NCBI GenBank assembly: GCA_021778575.1
Contig: JAJYCH010000034.1
Span: 1-14,646, forward strand
Origin: Planctomycetota bacterium
GTDB lineage: Bacteria; Planctomycetota; Planctomycetia; Isosphaerales; Isosphaeraceae
Direction: 5' to 3'
DNA length: 14,646 nt
In this document: piece after piece, positions 3-14,646 of the stretch
How the letters are laid out: every line of letters starts with the position of its first letter
How positions within the stretch are numbered: position 1 is the stretch's first letter
The notes under the pieces: model-generated
Seen by the model: only the letters and a program-made list of their open reading frames with translations
The model's database searches: none
What the model was told of the DNA's origin: nothing
Translations under genes and position numbers: made by a program

Positions 3-1148
3 CGGAAGCCCGGCTTGATCGCCCGGACATTTGGCTGGGGTGCGGTCTCGGCGGTTATCGCCTGGCTGGTGGTCTGGCCCTGGTATGCGTTTGTCGAGGG
101 CAACGGCGGTTACTCCGCCCTGCTCCGCCATCAGCGCAGTTACCTGGGAGGGTTCGCGGCCTGGTTGCCGAATTTTCAGATCCAGGTCTCTCAGGCGGTT
201 GCACTCTCAGGCGATCCCTGGTTGGTCTATCCAGCGGCGGCGCTGGCAAGCCTTACCCCCTGGATTGGCCGAAATCCTCTCTGGATGGATTTGTTCACCT
301 TGCGTTCCTGGTCTCGCATCAAAGTCATTGTCGGGACGATTGGGCTGATTTCTGTCAGCGGAAAGTTCGTTGAGTCTCCCTATCTGATGGGCTTCGTCGC
401 GTTCCCCTGGTTGCTCTGGAAACCGGGTAATCGCGTGGTGTGGCTCTCCTGGTTGGTGCTGGTTGTCAGTTCGCCGTTTTACCATCCTTACGCCCGACTT
501 TGGTTGCCGCTCCATGCGAGCCACTGGTTGGTGATGAGTTGGATTATCGCCGAGGGCTTACCCTCAATAGGGCTTCTGAATCCGAGATCCGAAACGAGCG
601 AAAAGGTTGATCCGAAGCTGCTCAAAGCCTTAGTCGTATCCATACTCTCGATCATTGCCTGGTGCCTCGTTAGCCAGCTACCCGCCATGACTTCTCAGGT
701 CATTCGTCTGGCAAAACCACAGCCCGACCTCCTCGCGCCCAGTGACTCGCTTCGCCAGGCGTCGTACCGGCTCTCGGTGCTTTTGCCGGATGAGGTCCGT
801 GGTTTACAACTCCTGGTCCGTCCGCCAGTCACGTATTATCTGGCCGGTCGATTACCGATCGCTCGTCTGCCGGGCTCGGAGGCTCTGCGGAAGCCCGGCA
901 CGCCGGGAGTCTGGGCTCTGGTCGATTCGGCGATCTTGCGTTCCGAGCTGGGTCCGCCTCCGGGGGGCAGCGAACGACTTCAGCTCGTCCCGTTCGAAGA
1001 GTTCTGGGAAGTTGTCGAAGAATATCCAACCCAGCTCAGCCTGCCGACCGCGCTTGACCTTGATCCGGGTCTGGCGCGATCGAGCACGGCCGACCGGAAC
1101 TGTTCGCTCTGGCTCTTGCGACCTCGCCAACGGGGACCGAAACCATGA
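3..1148 (+). CDS. GT39-like membrane glycosyltransferase, C-terminal part (5' partial)
   Basis: The frame is open to the left edge, so this is the end of a longer gene; the TTG at 15 is just the first start-like codon in view. About 380 residues are visible. The first two thirds are a series of hydrophobic segments separated by Trp/Pro-rich loops (WPWYAF near the start, and SSPFYHPYARLWLPLHA around residue 155), as in the C-terminal membrane half of GT-C enzymes of the dolichyl-phosphate mannosyltransferase/ArnT type (GT39/PMT_2). The last ~150 residues are soluble and would lie outside the membrane. Such enzymes move a sugar from a polyprenyl-phosphate donor to an extracytoplasmic acceptor. 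The catalytic N-terminal Asp-containing loop is outside the window, so donor and acceptor cannot be inferred. The stop codon overlaps the next start as ATGA, which suggests translational coupling to pncB. The family call is by general resemblance; a different GT-C family is possible. Confidence 0.7.
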   Translation, partial: RKPGLIARTFGWGAVSAVIAWLVVWPWYAFVEGNGGYSALLRHQRSYLGGFAAWLPNFQIQVSQAVALSGDPWLVYPAAALASLTPWIGRNPLWMDLFTLRSWSRIKVIVGTIGLISVSGKFVESPYLMGFVAFPWLLWKPGNRVVWLSWLVLVVSSPFYHPYARLWLPLHASHWLVMSWIIAEGLPSIGLLNPRSETSEKVDPKLLKALVVSILSIIAWCLVSQLPAMTSQVIRLAKPQPDLLAPSDSLRQASYRLSVLLPDEVRGLQLLVRPPVTYYLAGRLPIARLPGSEALRKPGTPGVWALVDSAILRSELGPPPGGSERLQLVPFEEFWEVVEEYPTQLSLPTALDLDPGLARSSTADRNCSLWLLRPRQRGPKP

Positions 1149-2497
1149 CCGCCGAAACCCCCGTCTCCCTCTGGCCCGACCCGGATGCACTCGGAACGGT
1201 GACCGACCTCTACCAACTGACGATGATGGCTGGCTACGCCGCCGCCGGAATCGACCAGTCGGACGCGACCTTCGAGCTGTTCGTCCGGAAACTACCGCCG
1301 AATCGGTCGTACATGATCTTCGCCGGGCTGGAGCAGGCGGTCGGCACGCTGCTCGGCCTCCGGTTCAGCGACGAACAGGTCGAGGGGATTCGCCACTGGC
1401 CGGTTTTCTCGGCGATCGACCCGACCTGGTTCGATTCTTTGAAGCAATTTCGATTCACCGGCGATGTCTGGTCGGTCCCTGAAGGTTCGGTCGTCTTCGC
1501 CAATGAGCCGTTGCTCCGCGTGACGGCTCCGCTGGCTCAGGCTCAACTGGTCGAGACGATCTTGCTGGCGTCGCTCGGCTATCCGACGCTGGTGGCGTCG
1601 AAGGCGAGCCGGATCGTCGAGGCGGCTCGTGGTCGGTCGGTGGTCGACTTCGGAGCCCGGCGCGGTCATGGGCCTCAGGCGGGATTCTTGAACGCCCGGG
1701 CGTCGTATCTCGCCGGATTTTCGGCAACGAGTCACGTCGAGGCCGCCCGACGGTTGCAGATCCCGGCGGTCGGGACGATGGCGCACGCCTGGGTTCAGTC
1801 GTTCGGAGACGAGCCGACCGCATTCGCGACTTTCGCCCGGCTCTTTCCTCGGGCGACGACCTTGCTGGTCGACACCTATGACATCGAGCAGGGGGTCCGC
1901 AACGCCGCCGCGATCGAACCGGCGATCCAGGCGATCCGGATCGACAGCGGCGATCTCGTCGCCGCGTCGAAGTCGGCTCGCGCGATCCTCGACTCGCTCG
2001 ATCGGACCGGCGTGAAAATTCTGGTCAGCAACGACCTCGACGAGAACAAGATCGCCGAGCTTCTCGACGCCGGTGCGCCGATCGACGCGTTCGGAGTCGG
2101 CACCGAACTGATCACCAGCCGCGACGCTCCGGCGATCTCGATGGTTTACAAGCTGGTTGAACTCGATGGTGTCGGCCGGATCAAGAAGAGTGCGGGCAAA
2201 CGAACTTACCCGATGGCCAAGCAGGTTTACCGGTCGACAACCAGCGCTGGAAAGTTCGCCGGGGATCGGGTGACCCGCGCCGACGAGTCCGCCGACGGCA
2301 CCTCGTTACTGGTCCCGGTGATCCAGTCCGGTCGGCTGGTCGGGAACCTTCCCGGCCTCGACGCGATCAAGGAGTATTGCCGGGCTCAACGCGAATCGTT
2401 ACCCGACAGGTTCCGCCAGATCGAGGCCGATACGTCGTACCCGCTCGATTACAGCGAGGCGCTGGAGGCTGAAGCGGTGAAGCTTGGTTTGAAGTAG
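1145..2497 (+). CDS. pncB: Nicotinate phosphoribosyltransferase (NAD salvage)
   Basis: This 450-residue protein has the full NAPRTase signature set: TDLYQLTMMAGY at 20-31, the RRGHG loop at 172-176, GTMAHAWV at 210-217 with His214 matching the transiently phosphorylated histidine of the family, DTYDIEQGV at 243-251, IRIDSGDL at 264-271, VSNDLDE at 294-300, and FGVGTELITS at 316-325. The enzyme joins nicotinate and PRPP, with ATP hydrolysis, to give nicotinate mononucleotide in the cytosolic Preiss-Handler salvage route to NAD. The length is normal for bacterial enzymes. The ATG overlaps the upstream stop codon (ATGA), so it is probably translated from the same message as the glycosyltransferase gene; no strong independent Shine-Dalgarno is seen. 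The functional link to the glycosyltransferase is unclear. Downstream lies a 197-nt leader before parB. Confidence 0.95.
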   Translation: MTAETPVSLWPDPDALGTVTDLYQLTMMAGYAAAGIDQSDATFELFVRKLPPNRSYMIFAGLEQAVGTLLGLRFSDEQVEGIRHWPVFSAIDPTWFDSLKQFRFTGDVWSVPEGSVVFANEPLLRVTAPLAQAQLVETILLASLGYPTLVASKASRIVEAARGRSVVDFGARRGHGPQAGFLNARASYLAGFSATSHVEAARRLQIPAVGTMAHAWVQSFGDEPTAFATFARLFPRATTLLVDTYDIEQGVRNAAAIEPAIQAIRIDSGDLVAASKSARAILDSLDRTGVKILVSNDLDENKIAELLDAGAPIDAFGVGTELITSRDAPAISMVYKLVELDGVGRIKKSAGKRTYPMAKQVYRSTTSAGKFAGDRVTRADESADGTSLLVPVIQSGRLVGNLPGLDAIKEYCRAQRESLPDRFRQIEADTSYPLDYSEALEAEAVKLGLK

Positions 2498-2539
2498 GTG
2501 CTGGTGGTCCCGTGTCCCACTGGATTTCGTCGGTTGAGC

Positions 2540-2568
2540 TTTACAGCTTCGGTGGTCAGCGATACCAT
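2540..2568 (+). promoter_or_regulatory. Possible sigma70-type promoter for parB
   Basis: TTTACA (2540-2545) and TACCAT (2563-2568) are separated by 17 nt, with 5 of 6 and 4 of 6 matches to the housekeeping -35 and -10 hexamers. Transcription would start near 2575 and leave a leader of about 120 nt before the parB GTG. This is a by-eye match in a GC-rich genome and could be chance. Confidence 0.35.
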
Positions 2569-2678
2569 CCCGCGCCTGTTCGAGAGGGTTTCCGGACCTT
2601 CTGGACAGTGCGACCGACCATCACGAGGCGGGCACGGATGCCACGCCCCTCGGGGCCTTCGGGCTTCGCCGACTCGTC

Positions 2679-2685
2679 AAGGAGG
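2679..2685 (+). promoter_or_regulatory. Shine-Dalgarno of parB
   Basis: AAGGAGG lies 9 nt upstream of the GTG at 2695. It fixes the parB start there rather than at the in-frame ATG at 2512, which would add 61 residues unlike any ParB N-terminus. Confidence 0.85.
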
Positions 2686-2694
2686 ATCTTCACC

Positions 2695-3585
2695 GTGAGC
2701 GTGAAACAGCGCCGACTGGGACGCGGACTTGATTCGCTGCTGGGAACCGAGGAAGGAGGCTTCGAAGCCTCGTCGCTCGAAAAAGCCGACCTGATCCAGA
2801 TTCCCGTCGATCGAATCGATCCCAATCCGTTCCAACCGCGACGTTACTTCGATCCGGCCGAGATCGCCGCGCTGGCCGGTTCGGTCAAGCAGCACGGGAT
2901 GCTCCAGCCCATCATTGTCCGGGCCGTCGACGATCGCTATCAACTGATCGCCGGCGAACGCCGGCTCCGGGCCAGTATCGAGGCCCAGCTCGCCACGATC
3001 CCGGCTCGAGTGATGGAACTCGACGACCGCAAGGTCAGCGAACTGGCGATGGTCGAGAACCTCCAGCGCGAGGATCTCAACGCGCTGGAAAAGGCGACCG
3101 CCTTTCGCGATTATCTGTCCCGTTACGGGGGGACCCAGGAAGAACTGGCCGGTCGGCTCGGGCTGGATCGATCGACGCTGTCGAACCTGATCCGGCTCCT
3201 CGAACTTCCCGAGGAAATCCAGTCGGCGGTGATGACCAAGGTGATCAGTCAGGGGCATGCCCGGGCCTTGCTTGGTCTCGCGGATGAGGACCAACGGATC
3301 GCCGCCTGCCGTCAGGTGATCGCTCAAGGATTGACGGTTCGACAGACCGAGGCGCTGGTGGCTACGGGAGTGCCGACCCCATCGAAGAGTCGGGTCCGGA
3401 AGGATTCAGGCGAGTCGACCACGACCCGGGCTCCGCATTTCGTCGAACTCGAAGAACACCTGAAGGTTCGATTCGGGACGCCCGTGGCCGTCCGGCCCAG
3501 GAGCAAGGATCGCGGCCAGATCGTTATCGAGTATAACTCGAAGGACGAGTACGACCGGGTCTCCGAGCTGATTCGAGGCTCCTGA
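2695..3585 (+). CDS. parB: ParB/Spo0J-family chromosome-partitioning protein
   Basis: ParB is a CTP-dependent DNA clamp that loads at parS sites, spreads along DNA and, with ParA and SMC, positions and segregates the chromosome origin region. From the GTG start the protein has 296 residues. It begins with the usual RRLGRGLDSLLG (6-17), which contacts ParA. The nuclease-like/CTP-binding domain (about 34-125) holds GERRLRA at 88-94 and ENLQRE at 121-126, the two conserved CTP-pocket boxes. A helix-turn-helix follows at about 147-170 (EELAGRLGLDRSTLSNLIRL), and the C-terminus (about 250-296) fits the dimerisation domain. The length is typical. No parA is next to it; the upstream neighbour is pncB. 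A parS-like site lies 2.2 kb downstream at 5811-5826, supporting a chromosomal ParB rather than a plasmid one. Start chosen from the AAGGAGG at 2679. Confidence 0.95.
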   Translation: MSVKQRRLGRGLDSLLGTEEGGFEASSLEKADLIQIPVDRIDPNPFQPRRYFDPAEIAALAGSVKQHGMLQPIIVRAVDDRYQLIAGERRLRASIEAQLATIPARVMELDDRKVSELAMVENLQREDLNALEKATAFRDYLSRYGGTQEELAGRLGLDRSTLSNLIRLLELPEEIQSAVMTKVISQGHARALLGLADEDQRIAACRQVIAQGLTVRQTEALVATGVPTPSKSRVRKDSGESTTTRAPHFVELEEHLKVRFGTPVAVRPRSKDRGQIVIEYNSKDEYDRVSELIRGS

Positions 3586-3909: not shown

Positions 3910-4602
3910 ATGCTCCAGAGCCTGGGCAATGACACGCTCGCCGACCAGCTTTTGCGGATCGCCTGTGAGCCTGATCTGCGCCAGGGGCTCTATGATCGGC
4001 TGGGGGAGTACTGTCACCAGTGCCGGAATCGACTCAATAGTCTCAAGCTCAGCCTGTACCTGATCATGAGGCACTCGTCGGGGATCGCGAACCGCCCCTG
4101 GGAATCGATCGACCGGCTCTACCAGGATCTCGAACGGCGGATCGACCAGATTCAAACGCTTTGCCGACCGCTCCGGCTCTCGCCGGTCACCCTGGGTCTC
4201 GACCTGCTGATCGACGATCGTCGCGAGGGCTGGGAATCGCTCCTGGGCCGATCGGGAAAGACTCTCGTGATCGCCCGACCAACCGATCGCGCTGTGGTCG
4301 GCTTCGACGTCGAGTGGCTGGGGCAGGGGCTCGATGCCTTCGTCGCCTGGCGAGCCAGCGTGAGCGGCGGTTCGGTCGCGACCGTGCGCTGGTGGGCCGA
4401 ACTGGGGCTTGTCCATCTGGTCTGGGAAGAATCCGGGGTGCCGATCCAACTCGCCGGGGCTTTGTCCTCCGAGATTGATGCCCTGTGGGCCTTTCCACTT
4501 CTCGCTCGAATCATTCTGGCTCATCACGGTGAGTTCCGGCTGCAACTCGACTCCGGATATCGACTCGAAATGACCTGGCCGACCGTTCCTTCTTCGCCTT
4601 GA
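3910..4602 (+). CDS. Degenerate histidine-kinase-like protein (DHp present, ATPase motifs lost)
   Basis: The protein has 230 residues, with no signal peptide or membrane segment. Residues 30-52 read like the dimerisation/phospho-acceptor helix of NtrB-type kinases, with His36 in HQCRN (compare HEIRN). A second helix follows at about 65-90. The C-terminal half aligns by eye with a HATPase_c fold, but the nucleotide-binding residues are gone. The N-box region GLDAFVAW (140-147) lacks both Asn residues, the G1 position reads EESGVP (173-178) instead of D-x-G-x-G, and the G2 glycines are missing. The tail LLARIILAHHGE (197-208) and the final strand LEMTWP keep the kinase-like ending. It is therefore likely catalytically dead for ATP but able to dimerise and carry or receive a phosphate, as in a phosphotransfer (Spo0B/ChpT-like) or scaffold protein. 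The receiver protein 18 nt downstream is the obvious partner. The ATG has a GAGGA 4 nt upstream. Fold assignment is inference. Confidence 0.7.
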   Translation: MLQSLGNDTLADQLLRIACEPDLRQGLYDRLGEYCHQCRNRLNSLKLSLYLIMRHSSGIANRPWESIDRLYQDLERRIDQIQTLCRPLRLSPVTLGLDLLIDDRREGWESLLGRSGKTLVIARPTDRAVVGFDVEWLGQGLDAFVAWRASVSGGSVATVRWWAELGLVHLVWEESGVPIQLAGALSSEIDALWAFPLLARIILAHHGEFRLQLDSGYRLEMTWPTVPSSP

Positions 4603-4620: not shown

Positions 4621-5025
4621 ATGCACGTTTTCCACCGATCGGGAAGAAACTCTTTTCTTCCCGAGAACCCATTTATCTTGCTTGTCGACGACGACGAGGC
4701 AAGCTGGCGACCGCTGGCCGAACTGGTCCGGCATGCCGGTTTCACGAGCGTCGCCGTGGGTTCGGCGGCCGACGCGCTGGCTTGCTGTCGTCGACGTCGG
4801 CCGGACATCCTGGTCACCGACCTGGTGATGCCTCGTCGCGATGGGCGGGCGCTGGCCGTCCGGGTCCGGAAACGGTTTCCCGGCGTCCCGATCGTCCTGG
4901 TGACCGGACAGAACCTCGATCATCCCGACTGGATCGTCCCGAGCGGCCTGTTCGAGAAGATCTTTCCCAAACCACTCGACTTCGATCGCTTCATCACGAT
5001 CATCGCCCGGATGATGCCGGCTTGA
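4621..5025 (+). CDS. Stand-alone receiver-domain response regulator
   Basis: This protein of 134 residues consists of a REC domain and little else. Acidic pocket Asp23-Asp24-Asp25 (LVDDD), phosphorylation site Asp67 (VTDLVMP), the switch Thr95 (LVTG) and the conserved Lys117 (FPKP) are all present, so it should be phosphorylatable. There is no output domain, as in CheY/Spo0F/DivK-like proteins, so it must act by protein contact or phosphotransfer. It starts 18 nt after the kinase-like gene and probably shares its transcript. No Shine-Dalgarno precedes ATG 4621, and a 10-bp hairpin covers codons 7-15. A TTG at 4678 (residue 20) is the only other plausible start and would shorten the first beta strand. 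Residues 1-17 are not part of the REC fold. The stop codon overlaps the -35 element of the following tRNA promoter. Confidence 0.85.
   Translation: MHVFHRSGRNSFLPENPFILLVDDDEASWRPLAELVRHAGFTSVAVGSAADALACCRRRRPDILVTDLVMPRRDGRALAVRVRKRFPGVPIVLVTGQNLDHPDWIVPSGLFEKIFPKPLDFDRFITIIARMMPA
4639..4664. repeat. 10-bp perfect inverted repeat at the 5' end of the response-regulator gene
   Basis: TCGGGAAGAA (4639-4648) pairs exactly with TTCTTCCCGA (4655-4664) across a 6-nt loop. It sits just after the proposed start codon, where a stem could slow initiation, mark mRNA processing between the two signalling genes, or hint that the true start lies downstream. Confidence 0.6.
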
Positions 5026-5067: not shown

Positions 5068-5142
5068 CGGGGCGTAGCGCAGCCTGGCTAGCGCGCCTGC
5101 CTTGGGAGCAGGAGGTCGTGGGTTCGAATCCCGCCGCCCCGA
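5068..5142 (+). tRNA. tRNA-Pro(TGG)
   Basis: A complete cloverleaf can be drawn. The acceptor CGGGGCG (5068-5074) pairs with CGCCCCG (5135-5141) with discriminator A5142. The D stem is GCGC (5077-5080) with GCGC (5091-5094). The anticodon stem is CCTGC/GCAGG (5096-5100, 5108-5112) around loop CTTGGGA, giving anticodon TGG at 5103-5105. The variable loop has 5 nt, and the T arm GTGGG/CCCGC encloses TTCGAAT. The C1 start and TGG anticodon are standard for bacterial proline tRNA, which reads CCA and by wobble other CCN codons. CCA is not encoded; TTA follows, so the tail is added after transcription. The next gene converges on it, ending 19 nt away, with no terminator visible between them. Confidence 0.97.
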
Positions 5143-5783: not shown

Positions 5784-6530
5784 TCAGTACGAACTATTAA
5801 CCGGCGCTGTCGTTCCACGTGAAACGACCGGCGATCGGGTCCGCTTCGGCTCGCCGAGCCGGTCGAGCAGGGCGTCGAGGATGTCCGCCGTCTTGCTCAG
5901 ACCCAGTCGTTCGCAACCGAGTTCGGCGAAGGCGAGGGCCGAGTCGAGGTCACGCATCCCACCGGCGGCCTTGACCTTCACCGGGGAAGGGGACTCGCGG
6001 AGCATCAGCAGGATATCCTCGCGGGTGGCTCCGCCCGTGCCGTAGCCGGTCGAGGTCTTCACGTAGTCGGCCTTCACCGCGGCGCAGATGGCGCAGAGGC
6101 GAGCTTTCTGCTCGTCGTTGAGATAGCAATTCTCGAAGATCACCTTCACGATCGCCGAGTGAGCATGGGCGACCGCGACGACTCCGGCGATGTCATCGCT
6201 CACCGCCGCCCATTCGCCGCCGATCACCTGGCCGATGTTGACGACCATGTCGAGTTCCGTCGCGCCGTCGGCGATGGCCTGACGGGATTCGAGAACCTTC
6301 AGGCTCGAAGCATGTCCACCGTGGGGGAAGCCGATCGTCGTGCCGACGTTAACCACCGTTCCCGCCAGAAGCTTCGCCGCCAGGCTCACGGCGAACGGCT
6401 TGATGCAGACGCTGGCCACTCCGTAATCGGCCGCGAGGCGGCAGCCGTCTTCGAGTTCGGCCGTGGTCATCGTGGGAGCGAGCAACGAATGGTCGATCCG
6501 CCGGGCGATCGCGTCGTAAGTCAAGTTCAT
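5784..6530 (-). CDS. deoC: Deoxyribose-phosphate aldolase
   Basis: DERA reversibly cleaves 2-deoxyribose 5-phosphate to glyceraldehyde 3-phosphate and acetaldehyde in deoxynucleoside catabolism, in the cytosol. The 248-residue sequence has RIDHSLLAPT at 11-20, GFPHGGH at 67-73, ELDMVVN at 92-98 with Asp94, the Schiff-base Lys158 in YVKTSTGYG (156-164), and Lys187 in KVKAAGG (185-191); these correspond to Asp102, Lys167 and Lys201 of the E. coli enzyme. The phosphate-binding end reads RLGLSKTADI rather than the common G-T-S type. After LLDRLGE (227) there is a 21-residue polar tail with no counterpart in the barrel. The DNA for tail residues 235-240 is a parS-like site. The gene starts 33 nt after the membrane-protein gene on the same strand and is probably cotranscribed with it. 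No clear Shine-Dalgarno; the start is chosen by the conserved N-terminus. Confidence 0.95.
   Translation of the reverse strand: MNLTYDAIARRIDHSLLAPTMTTAELEDGCRLAADYGVASVCIKPFAVSLAAKLLAGTVVNVGTTIGFPHGGHASSLKVLESRQAIADGATELDMVVNIGQVIGGEWAAVSDDIAGVVAVAHAHSAIVKVIFENCYLNDEQKARLCAICAAVKADYVKTSTGYGTGGATREDILLMLRESPSPVKVKAAGGMRDLDSALAFAELGCERLGLSKTADILDALLDRLGEPKRTRSPVVSRGTTAPVNSSY
5811..5826. promoter_or_regulatory. parS: parS-like centromere site (ParB loading site)
   Basis: CGTTCCACGTGAAACG matches the general bacterial parS consensus TGTTNCACGTGAAACA at every position except the two outermost, which are changed symmetrically (C...G for T...A) so the dyad is kept. A match to the 13 fixed central bases is expected by chance about 0.0004 times in a window of this size with even base use. 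It lies 2.2 kb from parB, inside the 3' end of deoC. ParB binding itself is inference. Confidence 0.85.
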
Positions 6531-9953: not shown

Positions 9954-10907
9954 ATGCCCGAGATTCTTCGCTACTACGCCGCCGCTTGCCAGACCGATTT
10001 GCCCTGTTTGCCCGATCGATCGGGACTTGATGAGCGAGTCACCACGCTCCTGGGAATGATCGATCGGGCCGTGATCGGTTACGAGCCCTTCTTCGATATC
10101 AAGCTCATCGTCTTTCCGGAATTCGCCCACACGCCGCCGATTTATCCGACCGTCGCCGAGCTTCGCGACCGACTGGCGGTTCCGATCCCCAACGACCAGA
10201 CCGATCGCTACCAGGCCAAGGCGAAAGAGCAGGGGATCTACATCCAGACCGGGACTTTTCTCGAAGTCGACCCGAAATGGGCGGGCGTGGTCTTCAACAC
10301 CACCTGCCTGATCGGACCGGACGGATTGCTGGCGAAGTACCGGAAGGTGAACCCCTGGCTCCCCTGGGAGGTTCACGCCAGCCCTCATGACCTTCCGGGC
10401 TACGACGAACCGCTGTTCCCGGTCGTCGAGACCGAGATTGGCCGCCTCGGGGCGGCGATCTGTTACGACTGGCTGTTTCCCGAAGCGATCCGGGCTCTGG
10501 CTGTCGCCGGCGCGGAGGTTCTGATTCGGGTCTCGGCTTACATGGACCCGTGGGGGGCCTCGCCGCCGATGGACTGGTGGACCCTGTTCAATCGGGCTCG
10601 GGCGGTCGAGAACTTCGCCTACGTCGTGGCGGCGAACCAGGGAGCGTCGGCCACGAATTACCCGCCGTTCTCATGGCCGGGCGGAAGCATGGTCGTCGAT
10701 TTTGACGGCCGGATTCTGGCCCAGGCCGACCCTGGTCCGGGTGAAAAAATCGTGGTGGGACCGATCGACCTGGCCAGCCTTCGAGCCGAACGATCCCGAC
10801 GCCGGGGCCATGCTTTCCTCGACCATTTGCGAACCGAGGCGAATCGCGGTAAGTTCGCCTCCTTCTCCCACCCTGGCCCGCCCGGTCATCGCGAGAATGG
10901 CACATGA
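9954..10907 (+). CDS. Nitrilase-superfamily carbon-nitrogen hydrolase
   Basis: This protein of 317 residues has the nitrilase-fold catalytic triad in its usual contexts: Glu56 in VFPEFA (53-58), Lys131 in KYRKVNPW (128-135), and nucleophile Cys170 in AAICYDWLFPEAIR (167-180). RARAVENFAYVVAANQG (214-230) is the conserved late motif. The family hydrolyses amides, nitriles or carbamoyl groups, and some members run the reverse acyl transfer. The PW-x-P-W-E stretch after the Lys recalls aliphatic amidase/formamidase-like members, but the substrate cannot be read from sequence. No signal peptide, so cytosolic. I chose ATG 9954; a TTG at 9927 overlapping the previous stop would add nine residues with no support. 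The stop overlaps the next start as ATGA, implying coupled translation with the FG-GAP giant. The tail after about residue 305 is Pro/Gly/His-rich and probably disordered. Confidence 0.92.
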   Translation: MPEILRYYAAACQTDLPCLPDRSGLDERVTTLLGMIDRAVIGYEPFFDIKLIVFPEFAHTPPIYPTVAELRDRLAVPIPNDQTDRYQAKAKEQGIYIQTGTFLEVDPKWAGVVFNTTCLIGPDGLLAKYRKVNPWLPWEVHASPHDLPGYDEPLFPVVETEIGRLGAAICYDWLFPEAIRALAVAGAEVLIRVSAYMDPWGASPPMDWWTLFNRARAVENFAYVVAANQGASATNYPPFSWPGGSMVVDFDGRILAQADPGPGEKIVVGPIDLASLRAERSRRRGHAFLDHLRTEANRGKFASFSHPGPPGHRENGT

Positions 10908-13900
10908 CTCCGTCTGATCCGAAGCGACCGCAAGACCCCGTTTCCGGCGTCCCACCGATCGCTCCGAGGACCCGAGGCAATTTCCTCCGAATCGTCGTGC
11001 CGGTGATCAGTCTCATCGTGGGGTTGTCGATCGGCCTGGTGGCGCTCAAGCTGATCGACCGACCGCCGCCGAAGGTTGATTGGGCGACCCGCGACGAGAT
11101 CCCGCCCGACCAGCTCAGCACCGTCATCGACGCTCATTATCGCGGCCTGGGAGCGATGGAGCGCTACGAATATGAAATCGCGGCGCACGCCTTCGGTGAG
11201 GTCCACCAGAAAGCTCCCGGCTGGGTTCCCGGCGCGATCAATCTGGCCATCGCCCTGCTCAATCAAGGCGGCGAAGCCGAGGCCCGAGCGAAGGAAACCG
11301 GTCAAGGAGTCGTACCGGTCGAGGCGAAGAAGAATTTCGAGGTCGCCCACCAGCTTCTGACCGAGGTCATTGCCCGTCAACCAAGAAATCCTCACGCGCT
11401 CTATTCGCGGGGGATTATCCTGATGAATGGCGGATCATTCCTCGAAGCCAACGCCGACTTCCGGGCCGTCACCGAAATCGATCCGTTCGACGCCAACGCC
11501 TGGCTCGAACGCGGAGTGACCTTGACCGATCCCGACGCCTCGGTGGGGGTCATCGGTCCCAAATCGAAGCTGCTTCCCGAATTGATCTCCTATTATCGGA
11601 AAGCCCTCGAACTGAATCCCGGCCTGACCACGGCGATGTACAAGCTCTCGCAGGTCCAGGGCTATGCCGGCGACAAGGCCCAGCAAACCAAGCTTTACAC
11701 GCAGTTCATGGCCATGGACCCGGAGAAGAACTTCGCCGGTTCCGGAGACCTGGCCAAACTCGTCTACGGCGAGATGGGACGCTACGCCAAGATTCTCAAC
11801 CCCTTCGGACAGGAAAAGAACGCAGCCGAGACGGTCCCTTCGCCGCAATTTGAGCCGTTGCGCGAGATCCAGGTCATCCTGGCCTCGGCGACTCACTGGG
11901 CCGGACCAGCCGATTTCACCGGCCCCAATGTGATTTTTGGTCGGGCCCGAGCGCGGTTTGGTCAAGGGGTTGCCACGTTCGACGCCAACGGCGACGGCCG
12001 GCTCGATCTGTACTTGACGGCCGCCGTGGTTGGTCCCAAGGGCCTGCATGACGTTCTCTTGATCAATCGGGGCGACTACAAGTTCGAGGACGCCACGGCC
12101 TCGGCCGGGCTCCCCGAGGACCGGGCGGGGCTGGGTGTGGCCGCCGGTGATTTCGACGCCGACAAACGCGTCGATCTGTTCCTGACCGGCGTTGGCGACA
12201 ATCGGCTCTATCGCAACCTGGGTGGAAAATTCGTCGATCTGACCAAATCGGCGGGACTGGCGGATGCTCCCCCGGCGGTGACTCTGACGGCCCGCTGGCT
12301 CGACCTCGATCAGGACGGCGATCTCGACCTCTATGTCGTCAACCACGCCCCTTTGTCGGCTGCCGGCGCGTGTTTCAGCCTGAGCCCTCCAGCCTCGGGA
12401 ATCGCCAATCTTGCTTACCGGAACGATGGCCAGGCGGCCCCGGTTCCCGGCAAGATCAACTCGAACTGGGCCCCTCTGGCGGTCTCCACCGCCGACTTCG
12501 GCGCGACCGAAGGGCTCTCGATCGCTTTCACGCGTGCCTTTCCTGGAGCCGAGCATCTCTCGGCGGGAACGGCGCTGCATACCTCGGTCGCGGCTCTCGA
12601 TATCGACGACGATCGCGACATCGATCTGGTCGTCGGAAGTGATGCGGCCTCGCCCATCGCCATCGTCAACGACCGCGTGGGGCAGTTCCATTCCGAGGTT
12701 CTCAACGAGATCCGCCCCGCCACCGCGATCGTGGGGATGCTCGTCACGGACTCCGACAAGGACGGTCGATCCGACCTGATCGTCGTCGGACCCGCCGGCC
12801 GGGCCTCGGCCTGGCGGAATGCCACGACCCGGGACGAGAAGGGTTGGCATTTCCGCTTTGAATCAATCCCGATGAACGCCCGGAACTGGAGATCCGCGCA
12901 GGCGGTCGACCTCGATCTCGATACCTGGAGCGATCTGGTCGGGCTTCCCGATGATCCGGCGGCGACCATGCTCGCCTGGTCGCGAAATGGTGGTGCTCGG
13001 TTCGAGACCAAGACCCTACCGATCAAGCCCGACGGTCCAATCGACCCCTCGCTCTCGGGCTTCGCGGTCGCCGACCTGGTGGGTGATCCCTTGCCCGACC
13101 TCCTGATCCTTCGTGACGATCTGGCGCCCCGGCTCAGCCGGAACCTGGGCAACGGGATGCACTGGCTGGCGGTTGATCTGGCGGGCCAGTGGCATATCCC
13201 CCACGAACGAACGCGGACGAACTCGGAAGGGCTCGGAGCCCGGCTCTCGCTGGAAGGGCAGGGGCTAAACGTTCCTTTCGATCACACGACGGTCGAGGCC
13301 GGAACCGGACAGTCGGTCACGCCGGTCGTCCTGGGCATGGGCGCACAGAGCCTGGCCCCGCTCCTCCGGGTCCGCTGGCCCGATGGCGTCATCCAGTGCG
13401 AGCTGAACGTGACGGCCGACAAGACGCTCAAGCTCGTTGAGGTCAGCCGGAAAACCGGAAGCTGCCCGGTGCTTTTCACGTGGAACGGTCGACGGTTCGA
13501 GTGTCTGGGCGACTTCCTCGGTGGTGGCGGGATGGGATACCTGGTCAAGCCCGGAGTCTACGGCCAGCCCGATCGTGACGAATCCGTCGGGATCAGCCCC
13601 GAGCAACTCCAGCCGGTCGATGGCGTCTATCGGCTGAGCATCGTCGAGCCGATGGACGAAGTCGCCTATCTCGACAAGCTGACGCTCGACGTCATCGACC
13701 GTCCGCCCGGCATCAGCGCGACGCCCGACGAACGGTTCGCCCCCGAAGGACCTCGACCGACTGGCGAGATCCTCGCCTGGTCGCGGACGATCGAACCGGT
13801 CCGAGCGACCGACCACACCGGGCGTGACGTCACCAGCGAGATTCGCGCCTGGGATCGAAAGACGGTCGACCAGTTTGCCTTGCTGCGTGACTGGACCGGC

Positions 13901-14646
13901 TATACCGAGAACCACTCGCTGATTCTCGACTTTGGCGACCGTCTGTCGGCGTTCGGTCCCGACCGGAAACTGGTCCTCTGCCTGGCCGGGTGGGTCGAGT
14001 ATCCCTATTCGCAGACGAACTACGCGGCGGCGACCGCCGGTGTCGCCCTTCGCCCGCCGGTTCTCGAACGGCAAAAGCCCGACGGAAGCTGGATGATCCT
14101 CAACCCGTGCCCAGGCTATCCCGCTGGATTGCCGAGGATGATGACTCTCGACCTGTCCGGCAAGCTCGGTGGCGAGAAGTGCGTTCTGCGGTTGACCAGC
14201 AACATGGAATGCTACTGGGACCAGGCCTTCGTGGCCCTGGCCGAGGAGACCGCAAAGGTTCGGATCACCCCATTGCCGGTGGCCCGGGCCGAACTTCGCG
14301 ATCGAGGCTACCTCCGCGAGGTCTCGCCCGACGGCCGGCTCCCTCTGCTCTATGAATATGAATATGTCGACCCCGCGCCCCTCGCCCGGATGGATGGCCT
14401 GTTGACCCGGCATGGCGACGTCGTGAAACTCCTGACGGTCGACGACGATCAGGTCTGCACGGTCGGACCGGGAGACGAGGCCCGTCTCGAATTCGAAGCG
14501 AAAAGCCTCCCCGAGCTTCCCGAGGGCTGGACCCGTAGCTACGTGCTGCGGTCCATCGGCTACTGCAAGGATGCCGACCCGTTCACTGCCGGAAGTGATT
14601 CGATCGGCCCACTTCCCTGGCGAGGGATGCCCGAGTATCCATTCTC
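10904..14646 (+). CDS. Large membrane-anchored TPR / FG-GAP / ASPIC-UnbV protein (3' partial)
   Basis: The frame is open for 1,247 codons from ATG 10904 to the right edge. A Pro-rich cytosolic start is followed by one membrane helix (about 27-49), so the bulk is extracytoplasmic. Residues about 80-280 are TPR-like (NPHALYSRGIIL, YYRKALELNPGL). From about 358 to 745 come FG-GAP/VCBS-type repeats with calcium-loop-like motifs: DANGDGRLDLYL (about 360), AAGDFDADKRVDLFL (412), DLDQDGDLDLYVV (466), DIDDDRDIDLVVG (565), DSDKDGRSDLIVV (616), DLDLDTWSDLVGL (668). An ASPIC/UnbV-like segment follows (about 776-850: LGARLSLEGQ, VRWPDGVIQ), then a long C-terminal beta-rich region opening with CPVLFTWNGRRFECLGDFLG (853-872). 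This resembles the CRTAC1-type proteins abundant in planctomycetes, with calcium-stabilised beta-propellers for adhesion or ligand binding. The start overlaps the hydrolase stop (ATGA). The end lies outside the window. Confidence 0.92.
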   Translation, partial: MTPSDPKRPQDPVSGVPPIAPRTRGNFLRIVVPVISLIVGLSIGLVALKLIDRPPPKVDWATRDEIPPDQLSTVIDAHYRGLGAMERYEYEIAAHAFGEVHQKAPGWVPGAINLAIALLNQGGEAEARAKETGQGVVPVEAKKNFEVAHQLLTEVIARQPRNPHALYSRGIILMNGGSFLEANADFRAVTEIDPFDANAWLERGVTLTDPDASVGVIGPKSKLLPELISYYRKALELNPGLTTAMYKLSQVQGYAGDKAQQTKLYTQFMAMDPEKNFAGSGDLAKLVYGEMGRYAKILNPFGQEKNAAETVPSPQFEPLREIQVILASATHWAGPADFTGPNVIFGRARARFGQGVATFDANGDGRLDLYLTAAVVGPKGLHDVLLINRGDYKFEDATASAGLPEDRAGLGVAAGDFDADKRVDLFLTGVGDNRLYRNLGGKFVDLTKSAGLADAPPAVTLTARWLDLDQDGDLDLYVVNHAPLSAAGACFSLSPPASGIANLAYRNDGQAAPVPGKINSNWAPLAVSTADFGATEGLSIAFTRAFPGAEHLSAGTALHTSVAALDIDDDRDIDLVVGSDAASPIAIVNDRVGQFHSEVLNEIRPATAIVGMLVTDSDKDGRSDLIVVGPAGRASAWRNATTRDEKGWHFRFESIPMNARNWRSAQAVDLDLDTWSDLVGLPDDPAATMLAWSRNGGARFETKTLPIKPDGPIDPSLSGFAVADLVGDPLPDLLILRDDLAPRLSRNLGNGMHWLAVDLAGQWHIPHERTRTNSEGLGARLSLEGQGLNVPFDHTTVEAGTGQSVTPVVLGMGAQSLAPLLRVRWPDGVIQCELNVTADKTLKLVEVSRKTGSCPVLFTWNGRRFECLGDFLGGGGMGYLVKPGVYGQPDRDESVGISPEQLQPVDGVYRLSIVEPMDEVAYLDKLTLDVIDRPPGISATPDERFAPEGPRPTGEILAWSRTIEPVRATDHTGRDVTSEIRAWDRKTVDQFALLRDWTGYTENHSLILDFGDRLSAFGPDRKLVLCLAGWVEYPYSQTNYAAATAGVALRPPVLERQKPDGSWMILNPCPGYPAGLPRMMTLDLSGKLGGEKCVLRLTSNMECYWDQAFVALAEETAKVRITPLPVARAELRDRGYLREVSPDGRLPLLYEYEYVDPAPLARMDGLLTRHGDVVKLLTVDDDQVCTVGPGDEARLEFEAKSLPELPEGWTRSYVLRSIGYCKDADPFTAGSDSIGPLPWRGMPEYPF

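Follow-up and report, generated by a model that had tools for sequence, protein, structure and literature searches.

A putative parS site at the end of deoC in an Isosphaeraceae genome, in a lineage that seems to keep ParB and parS without Smc-ScpAB or a cognate ParA

The parB region and its parS-like sequence

The DNA analysed, hereafter the window, is a stretch of 14,646 nucleotides from a planctomycete of the family Isosphaeraceae. The genome to which it belongs is a MAG (5.35 Mb in 883 contigs, 74.9% complete). The features considered are the following:

15–1148, plus strand: protein of no assigned family; in relatives a parS lies upstream, between this gene and an HDAC gene
1145–2497, plus strand: pncB-like nicotinate phosphoribosyltransferase, a conserved upstream neighbour
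2498–2694, plus strand: pncB–parB junction, 197 bases, the place of parA in most Isosphaeraceae; parA absent
2680–2685: AGGAGG before parB
2695–3585, plus strand: parB, 296 aa, with ParB_N, HTH_ParB and ParB_C domains and LGRGL, GERR and ENLQR motifs
3910–4602, plus strand: histidine-kinase-like protein, a conserved neighbour; the label is a guess (no Pfam/NCBIfam match)
4621–5025, plus strand: response regulator receiver
5784–6530, minus strand: deoC, deoxyribose-phosphate aldolase, whose 3' end overlaps the parS-like site
5811–5826, strand not given: putative parS site, CGTTCCACGTGAAACG, with the core GTTCCACGTGAAAC at 5812–5825; proposed from sequence, rarity and synteny in relatives

A tRNA-Pro gene (anticodon TGG, 5068–5142) lies between the response regulator gene and a DUF7010 gene.

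The initial annotation had placed parB at 2695–3585, and the three ParB domains are indeed found there. The closest solved relatives of the window ParB are ParB/Spo0J proteins, and we take its GERR and ENLQR motifs to be the CTP pocket. Eight parS-contacting residues have been named in a ParB structure, of which R173 and G201 tell parS from the Noc site (PMC7383237, excerpts). In our reading of an alignment, matched by motif, the equivalents of six of the eight are kept in the window ParB (Q162, G170, R173, N178, G201 and R204). The two others, K171 and S172, are replaced by L and D, and most of the planctomycete ParBs compared share this.

The 16-mer CGTTCCACGTGAAACG differs from TGTTTCACGTGAAACA at three positions, namely the outermost base on either side and the fifth; the mismatch at the fifth breaks the symmetry of the palindrome. 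It is the sole match to TGTTTCACGTGAAACA in the window at three mismatches or fewer (mean of 0.01 in shuffled sequence). The published parS consensus is TGTTNCACGTGAAACA, whose fifth base is N (PMC7022226, excerpts), and the 14-base core of CGTTCCACGTGAAACG fits it. The agreement at all 14 central positions first reported for the site thus stands against TGTTNCACGTGAAACA but fails against TGTTTCACGTGAAACA, where the fifth base is a mismatch. A special ParB recognition helix for C at this base was considered and found no support: the DRST-type helix is common to ParA-plus, ParA-minus and other planctomycete ParBs. The site starts 2,226 bp past the end of parB and overlaps the last deoC codons, an overlap on which the initial annotation was silent. 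The sequence CTTTTCACGTGGAACG (13472–13487), a degenerate second site kept in the sister species, was rejected as parS because one of its half-sites is broken and it encodes LFTWNG of a long frame (10904–14644).

In its own genome the palindromic core GTTNCACGTGNAAC (the Isosphaeraceae core is also written GTTYCACGTGRAAC) occurs twice, within the 16-mer and on another contig (C484:3953–3966), and its backwards control not at all. Two copies against about 0.3 expected from simple base counting is not a strong excess, so the case for parS rests on synteny. The copy on C484 adjoins an HDAC gene (Hist_deacetyl), with about 0.6 kb left to the end of the contig. Since relatives show the same order, C484 probably abuts the window start, which would place a second parS just upstream of the window.

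Distribution of the core and its distance from dnaA

We compared the deoC end in 17 genomes, G002 and G022 having been added because they bear the core; G012 and G020 have no deoC in the stretch compared. The core is present inside deoC or at most 0.4 kb after it in 13 of the 17, from 8 genera (G000, G001, G002, G009, G017, G018, G019, G022, G026, G029, G030, G031 and G060), and was not found there in G005, G013, G024 and G033, all four ParA-less. The position is kept in most of these genomes, a check that the initial annotation had proposed. A second conserved core position lies, in relatives, between the homologue of the 15–1148 gene and the HDAC gene. Compared by eye, the flanks of the deoC-end core have little in common between genera. 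The outer pair, C..G in the window, is T..G, G..C, A..T, C..T, C..C, G..G or T..A in relatives. Since these bases differ freely, the idea that the outer C/G pair is an informative variant linked to the resident ParB was dropped.

A count over 37 Isosphaeraceae genomes gave 121 cores, while the backwards control gave 5; 36 of these genomes (not G010) have at least one core. In 17 chosen Isosphaeraceae genomes the counts were 43 and 1, with cores in 16 (not G062), and those on the same contig lie within 14 kb of one another. Twenty-nine of the 43 are on the contig of parB, within about 35 kb of it. The remaining 14 belong to G020 (6), G024 (1) and G033 (3), where parB is elsewhere, or lie on other contigs of G000, G001 and G030 (4). 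Position, core match, rarity and synteny bear out the claim of a parS-like 16-mer 2.2 kb from parB. The 16-mer is very probably a parS, that is a ParB docking site, to which the encoded ParB would bind.

Cores scattered evenly over the genome had been named as evidence against such a site. No even scatter is seen in the own genome; scattered cores do occur in G038, G056 and G004, and partly in G012, which has 5 cores, three near parB, one 0.08 Mb and one about 2.3 Mb away. The Isosphaeraceae genome G004 has 19 cores scattered on several contigs, and three of five loci share another conserved arm (L015, L278 and L281; L284 and L287 not clearly). In G038 and G056, from another family of the same class, the perfect palindrome GTTCCACGTGGAAC occurs 24 and 48 times respectively on many contigs, with a control of 0. 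In ten aligned loci it is part of a longer repeat that is conserved and lies mostly away from clear genes (repeat loci L007, L008, L276, L277, L279, L280, L282, L283, L285, L286, L337 and L338). Three and four copies in these genomes precede a parB by 0.4–0.6 kb, and a similar arm accompanies some of them. No more than 4 copies were counted in G047, a genome of the same genus. In G038 and G056 an element carrying parS may have spread through the genome. An Rfam scan of nine loci with dispersed cores gave no match.

The window had also been proposed to be a likely segregation centre and possibly origin-proximal; the latter now appears doubtful. Nine relatives carry dnaA (best PF00308 match) and parB/parS on one contig, and the distance is 0.55–2.15 Mb in eight of them: 0.55 Mb in G020, 0.69 in G036 and G066, 0.92 in G021, 1.03 in G062, 1.06 in G028, 1.95 in G024 and 2.14 in S. 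acidiphila (G026), the contigs of G020 and G024 being taken as circular. In the ninth, G012, it is 11 kb. In the own genome dnaA is on a different contig from the window. For S. acidiphila, G021 and G028 the sampled GC skew favours dnaA as the origin, and for them an origin adjoining parS was rejected, although in S. acidiphila the skew turns from negative to positive a second time between 4.33 and 4.82 Mb. In G020 a switch falls between the 4.38 and 4.65 Mb samples, nearer parS (4.91 Mb) than dnaA, which argues against a simple rule. The skew gave no clear picture in G036, G066, G062, G024 and G012. In P. aeruginosa, the zone around oriC to which parS has to be confined measures about 650 kb (PMC5098823, excerpts).

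ParB and its expected partners

In S. acidiphila and most Isosphaeraceae, parA lies between pncB and parB and overlaps parB. Its absence before the window parB is a point that the initial annotation missed. A cognate ParB (E < 1e-60) is present in 42 of 45 Isosphaeraceae genomes (not G010, G016 and G065). In 10 of these 42, the own genome included, we found no cognate ParA, i.e. no match above paralogue level (G000, G001, G005, G013, G017, G020, G024, G030, G033 and G060). The best match in the own genome is a paralogue, ParA2. In four of the ten (G013, G017, G020 and G024) completeness is 98% or more and contamination 4% or less. Relics of parA were detected upstream of parB in G024 (E 1e-19) and G033 (E 6e-6), E values that come from a tiny search set. 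The ParB tree has 43 rows, i.e. 40 family members and 3 outgroups (G059, with a partial ParB, and G023, with no locus, are left out); on it six changes of the parA label are required, of which well-supported branches force four or more, G020 being on a long branch of unsure placement. The existence of relics and the presence of parA in most genera lead us to read these changes as losses.

In G010 (81% complete) and G016 (92%; L023) neither a cognate ParB nor a cognate ParA was found. G016 keeps two cores, one of them at the HDAC position; G010 has none.

The N-terminal LGRGL peptide contacts ParA in other ParBs, and an N-terminus of the RRLGRGL type is intact in all ten ParA-less ParBs (RRLGKGL in G020). 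The dN/dS of ParB (NG86) is 0.10, 0.05 and 0.13 in three ParA-less pairs and 0.03 in one ParA-plus pair. Values for other genes between G000 and G001 are 0.10 (rnc), 0.24 (pncB) and 0.22 (deoC). Judged by these ratios, ParB is under purifying selection in ParA-less genomes; its constraint is possibly somewhat relaxed without ParA, the single ParA-plus pair making a thin comparison.

The second usual partner also appears to be missing. The SMC hinge model matches once in each of 22 genomes from other families of the class, which we take to be Planctomycetia, in frames of 942–1305 aa, and in none of 37 Isosphaeraceae genomes. ScpB was found in none of 18 Isosphaeraceae genomes, the control genomes being matched in 11 of 14 cases, 9 of them above the cut-off. 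In the same 18 Isosphaeraceae genomes SMC_N reaches at most 57 bits among the matches listed, and the best of those listed for S. acidiphila is RecN. A 1098-aa protein of G012 is Rad50/SbcC-like and far below the Smc cut-offs. MksE was rejected as a replacement condensin (0 of 37 Isosphaeraceae genomes and 4 of 22 others), a weak test since only 1 of 14 control genomes was matched. The condensin search consisted of Smc hinge, ScpB, SMC_N and MksE. From the hinge and ScpB results, the Isosphaeraceae seem to have lost Smc-ScpAB.

ParA2 (C643:1807–2664 in the own genome) has orthologues in 57 of the 59 genomes searched, partial ones in G030 and G041, and was not found in the other two, G007 and G018; it also occurs outside the family at 56–67% identity. 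It is also present where a cognate ParA is kept, and in five of the seven genomes looked at (G024 and G033 being the exceptions) its neighbour is a presumed RNase-H-like gene, so it may have a job of its own. In ParA-less genomes we infer that it is the best candidate partner of ParB.

In the ParA-less G024 and G033 (L180 and L182) the side of the locus with pncB and HDAC is now away from parB: a rearrangement has placed ParA2 next to pncB, which is the place of parA in relatives, about 4–12 kb from a parS core.

Possible roles and known systems

In published work, ParB binds parS, forms a closed clamp with CTP and then slides along to the DNA next to it. The 16-mer would belong to a small group of sites around parB at which ParB is loaded; there a ParB dimer would bind the palindrome, close with CTP and slide, giving a ParB-coated partition complex. 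ParB and parS would have been kept in a family without Smc-ScpAB, and, in the window genus and several other lineages, without the parA of the parAB operon. ParA2 would then be the likeliest partner, through the basic LGRGL N-terminus that ParB retains. That the 16-mer is a chromosomal parS, that ParB–parS has outlasted Smc-ScpAB and the cognate parA, and that ParA2 is the likeliest partner is a reading in which we have good confidence; binding by ParB, clamp loading, the use of ParA2 and a role in segregation are its conditional parts. On sequence grounds, we judge the site to be a new but ordinary parS, and the system in which it stands to be a new variant, ParB–parS without Smc-ScpAB or a cognate ParA.

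What this variant does in ParA-less Isosphaeraceae can be proposed only tentatively. ParB–parS may still be a working centromere without Smc-ScpAB or its own ParA, with clamps loaded at parS sites, some of them far from oriC, and moved or anchored by ParA2, or motor-free; we weakly favour ParA2 over a motor-free role. It is rather unlikely, and still to be weighed seriously, that ParB–parS no longer segregates chromosomes there and has another job with no ATPase partner, e.g. regulating nearby genes, exerting a control akin to nucleoid occlusion or marking the region. The lack of a Smc hinge or ScpB match and of a cognate ParA would fit such a job, as would parS sites far from dnaA in several relatives, parB unlinked from the cores in G020, G024 and G033, the four ParA-less genomes missing the deoC-end core, and a Noc model score of 234.5 bits for the window ParB (below the cut-off of 315). 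However, a role without a partner would not obviously need the N-terminus that all ten ParA-less ParBs keep intact, and the residues kept are those for parS rather than for the Noc site.

We consider it very improbable that parA and smc were simply missed, parA being unassembled or too diverged and Smc too diverged for the hinge model. The own genome is indeed only 75% complete and in 883 contigs, and the ScpB search covered 18 genomes of the family, none of its positive controls being from another family of the class. But in seven genomes a single contig shows pncB followed by parB with no parA between them (gap of about 170–340 nt), the near-complete G020 and G024 have no cognate parA genome-wide, and the hinge model gives one match in each of the 22 genomes of other families. 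It is scarcely credible that the 16-mer arose by chance in the coding tail of deoC and is no ParB site, because the core, which lies in the deoC frame in the window and the sister species and encodes VSR in that frame in 6 of the 17 genomes, is in another deoC frame in 3 and outside deoC in 4, and because the position beside the HDAC gene is conserved too and cores far outnumber controls across the 37 genomes.

The surprise of this site is its surroundings: ParB and its docking sites are kept in a branch that has seemingly lost both usual partner machines. The Isosphaeraceae appear to be a natural experiment, with repeated loss of the cognate ParA and no Smc hinge or ScpB found in the family genomes searched, while ParB and parS stay, which makes it testable what ParB–parS does alone and whether another ParA can take over. 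This bears on the need for parS near oriC and on chromosome inheritance in planctomycetes, many of which are without FtsZ. ParB has been described as the adaptor that joins parS to ParA and to Smc, its two machines (PMC8494293, excerpts). The literature looked at, including excerpts of PMC5352709 and PMC7203096, contains nothing seen on parS or Smc loss in Isosphaeraceae.

The nearest precedent is Streptococcus pneumoniae, which likewise has ParB and parS without ParA. It has an Smc linked to ParB, whereas no Smc hinge or ScpB match was obtained in Isosphaeraceae, and its CpsD, a Walker-type ATPase, is involved in ParB–parS movements (PMC7022226, excerpts). Noc, which acts at NBS in nucleoid occlusion, is like the window ParB a relative in the ParB-fold CTPases; in contrast to Noc (Q173/R201-type), the window ParB keeps the equivalents of R173 and G201 and stays under the NCBIfam Noc cut-off. 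With bacterial chromosomal parS (TGTTNCACGTGAAACA) the Isosphaeraceae sites share the 14-base core, the clustering and the linkage to parB, but their outer bases are unconstrained, the fifth base is often C and in several genomes they are far from dnaA. Compared with the ParABS system of S. acidiphila and most Isosphaeraceae, which keep a parA overlapping parB as the window genus does not, the own genome has the same locus order, a ParB about 70% identical, and parS at the deoC and HDAC positions.
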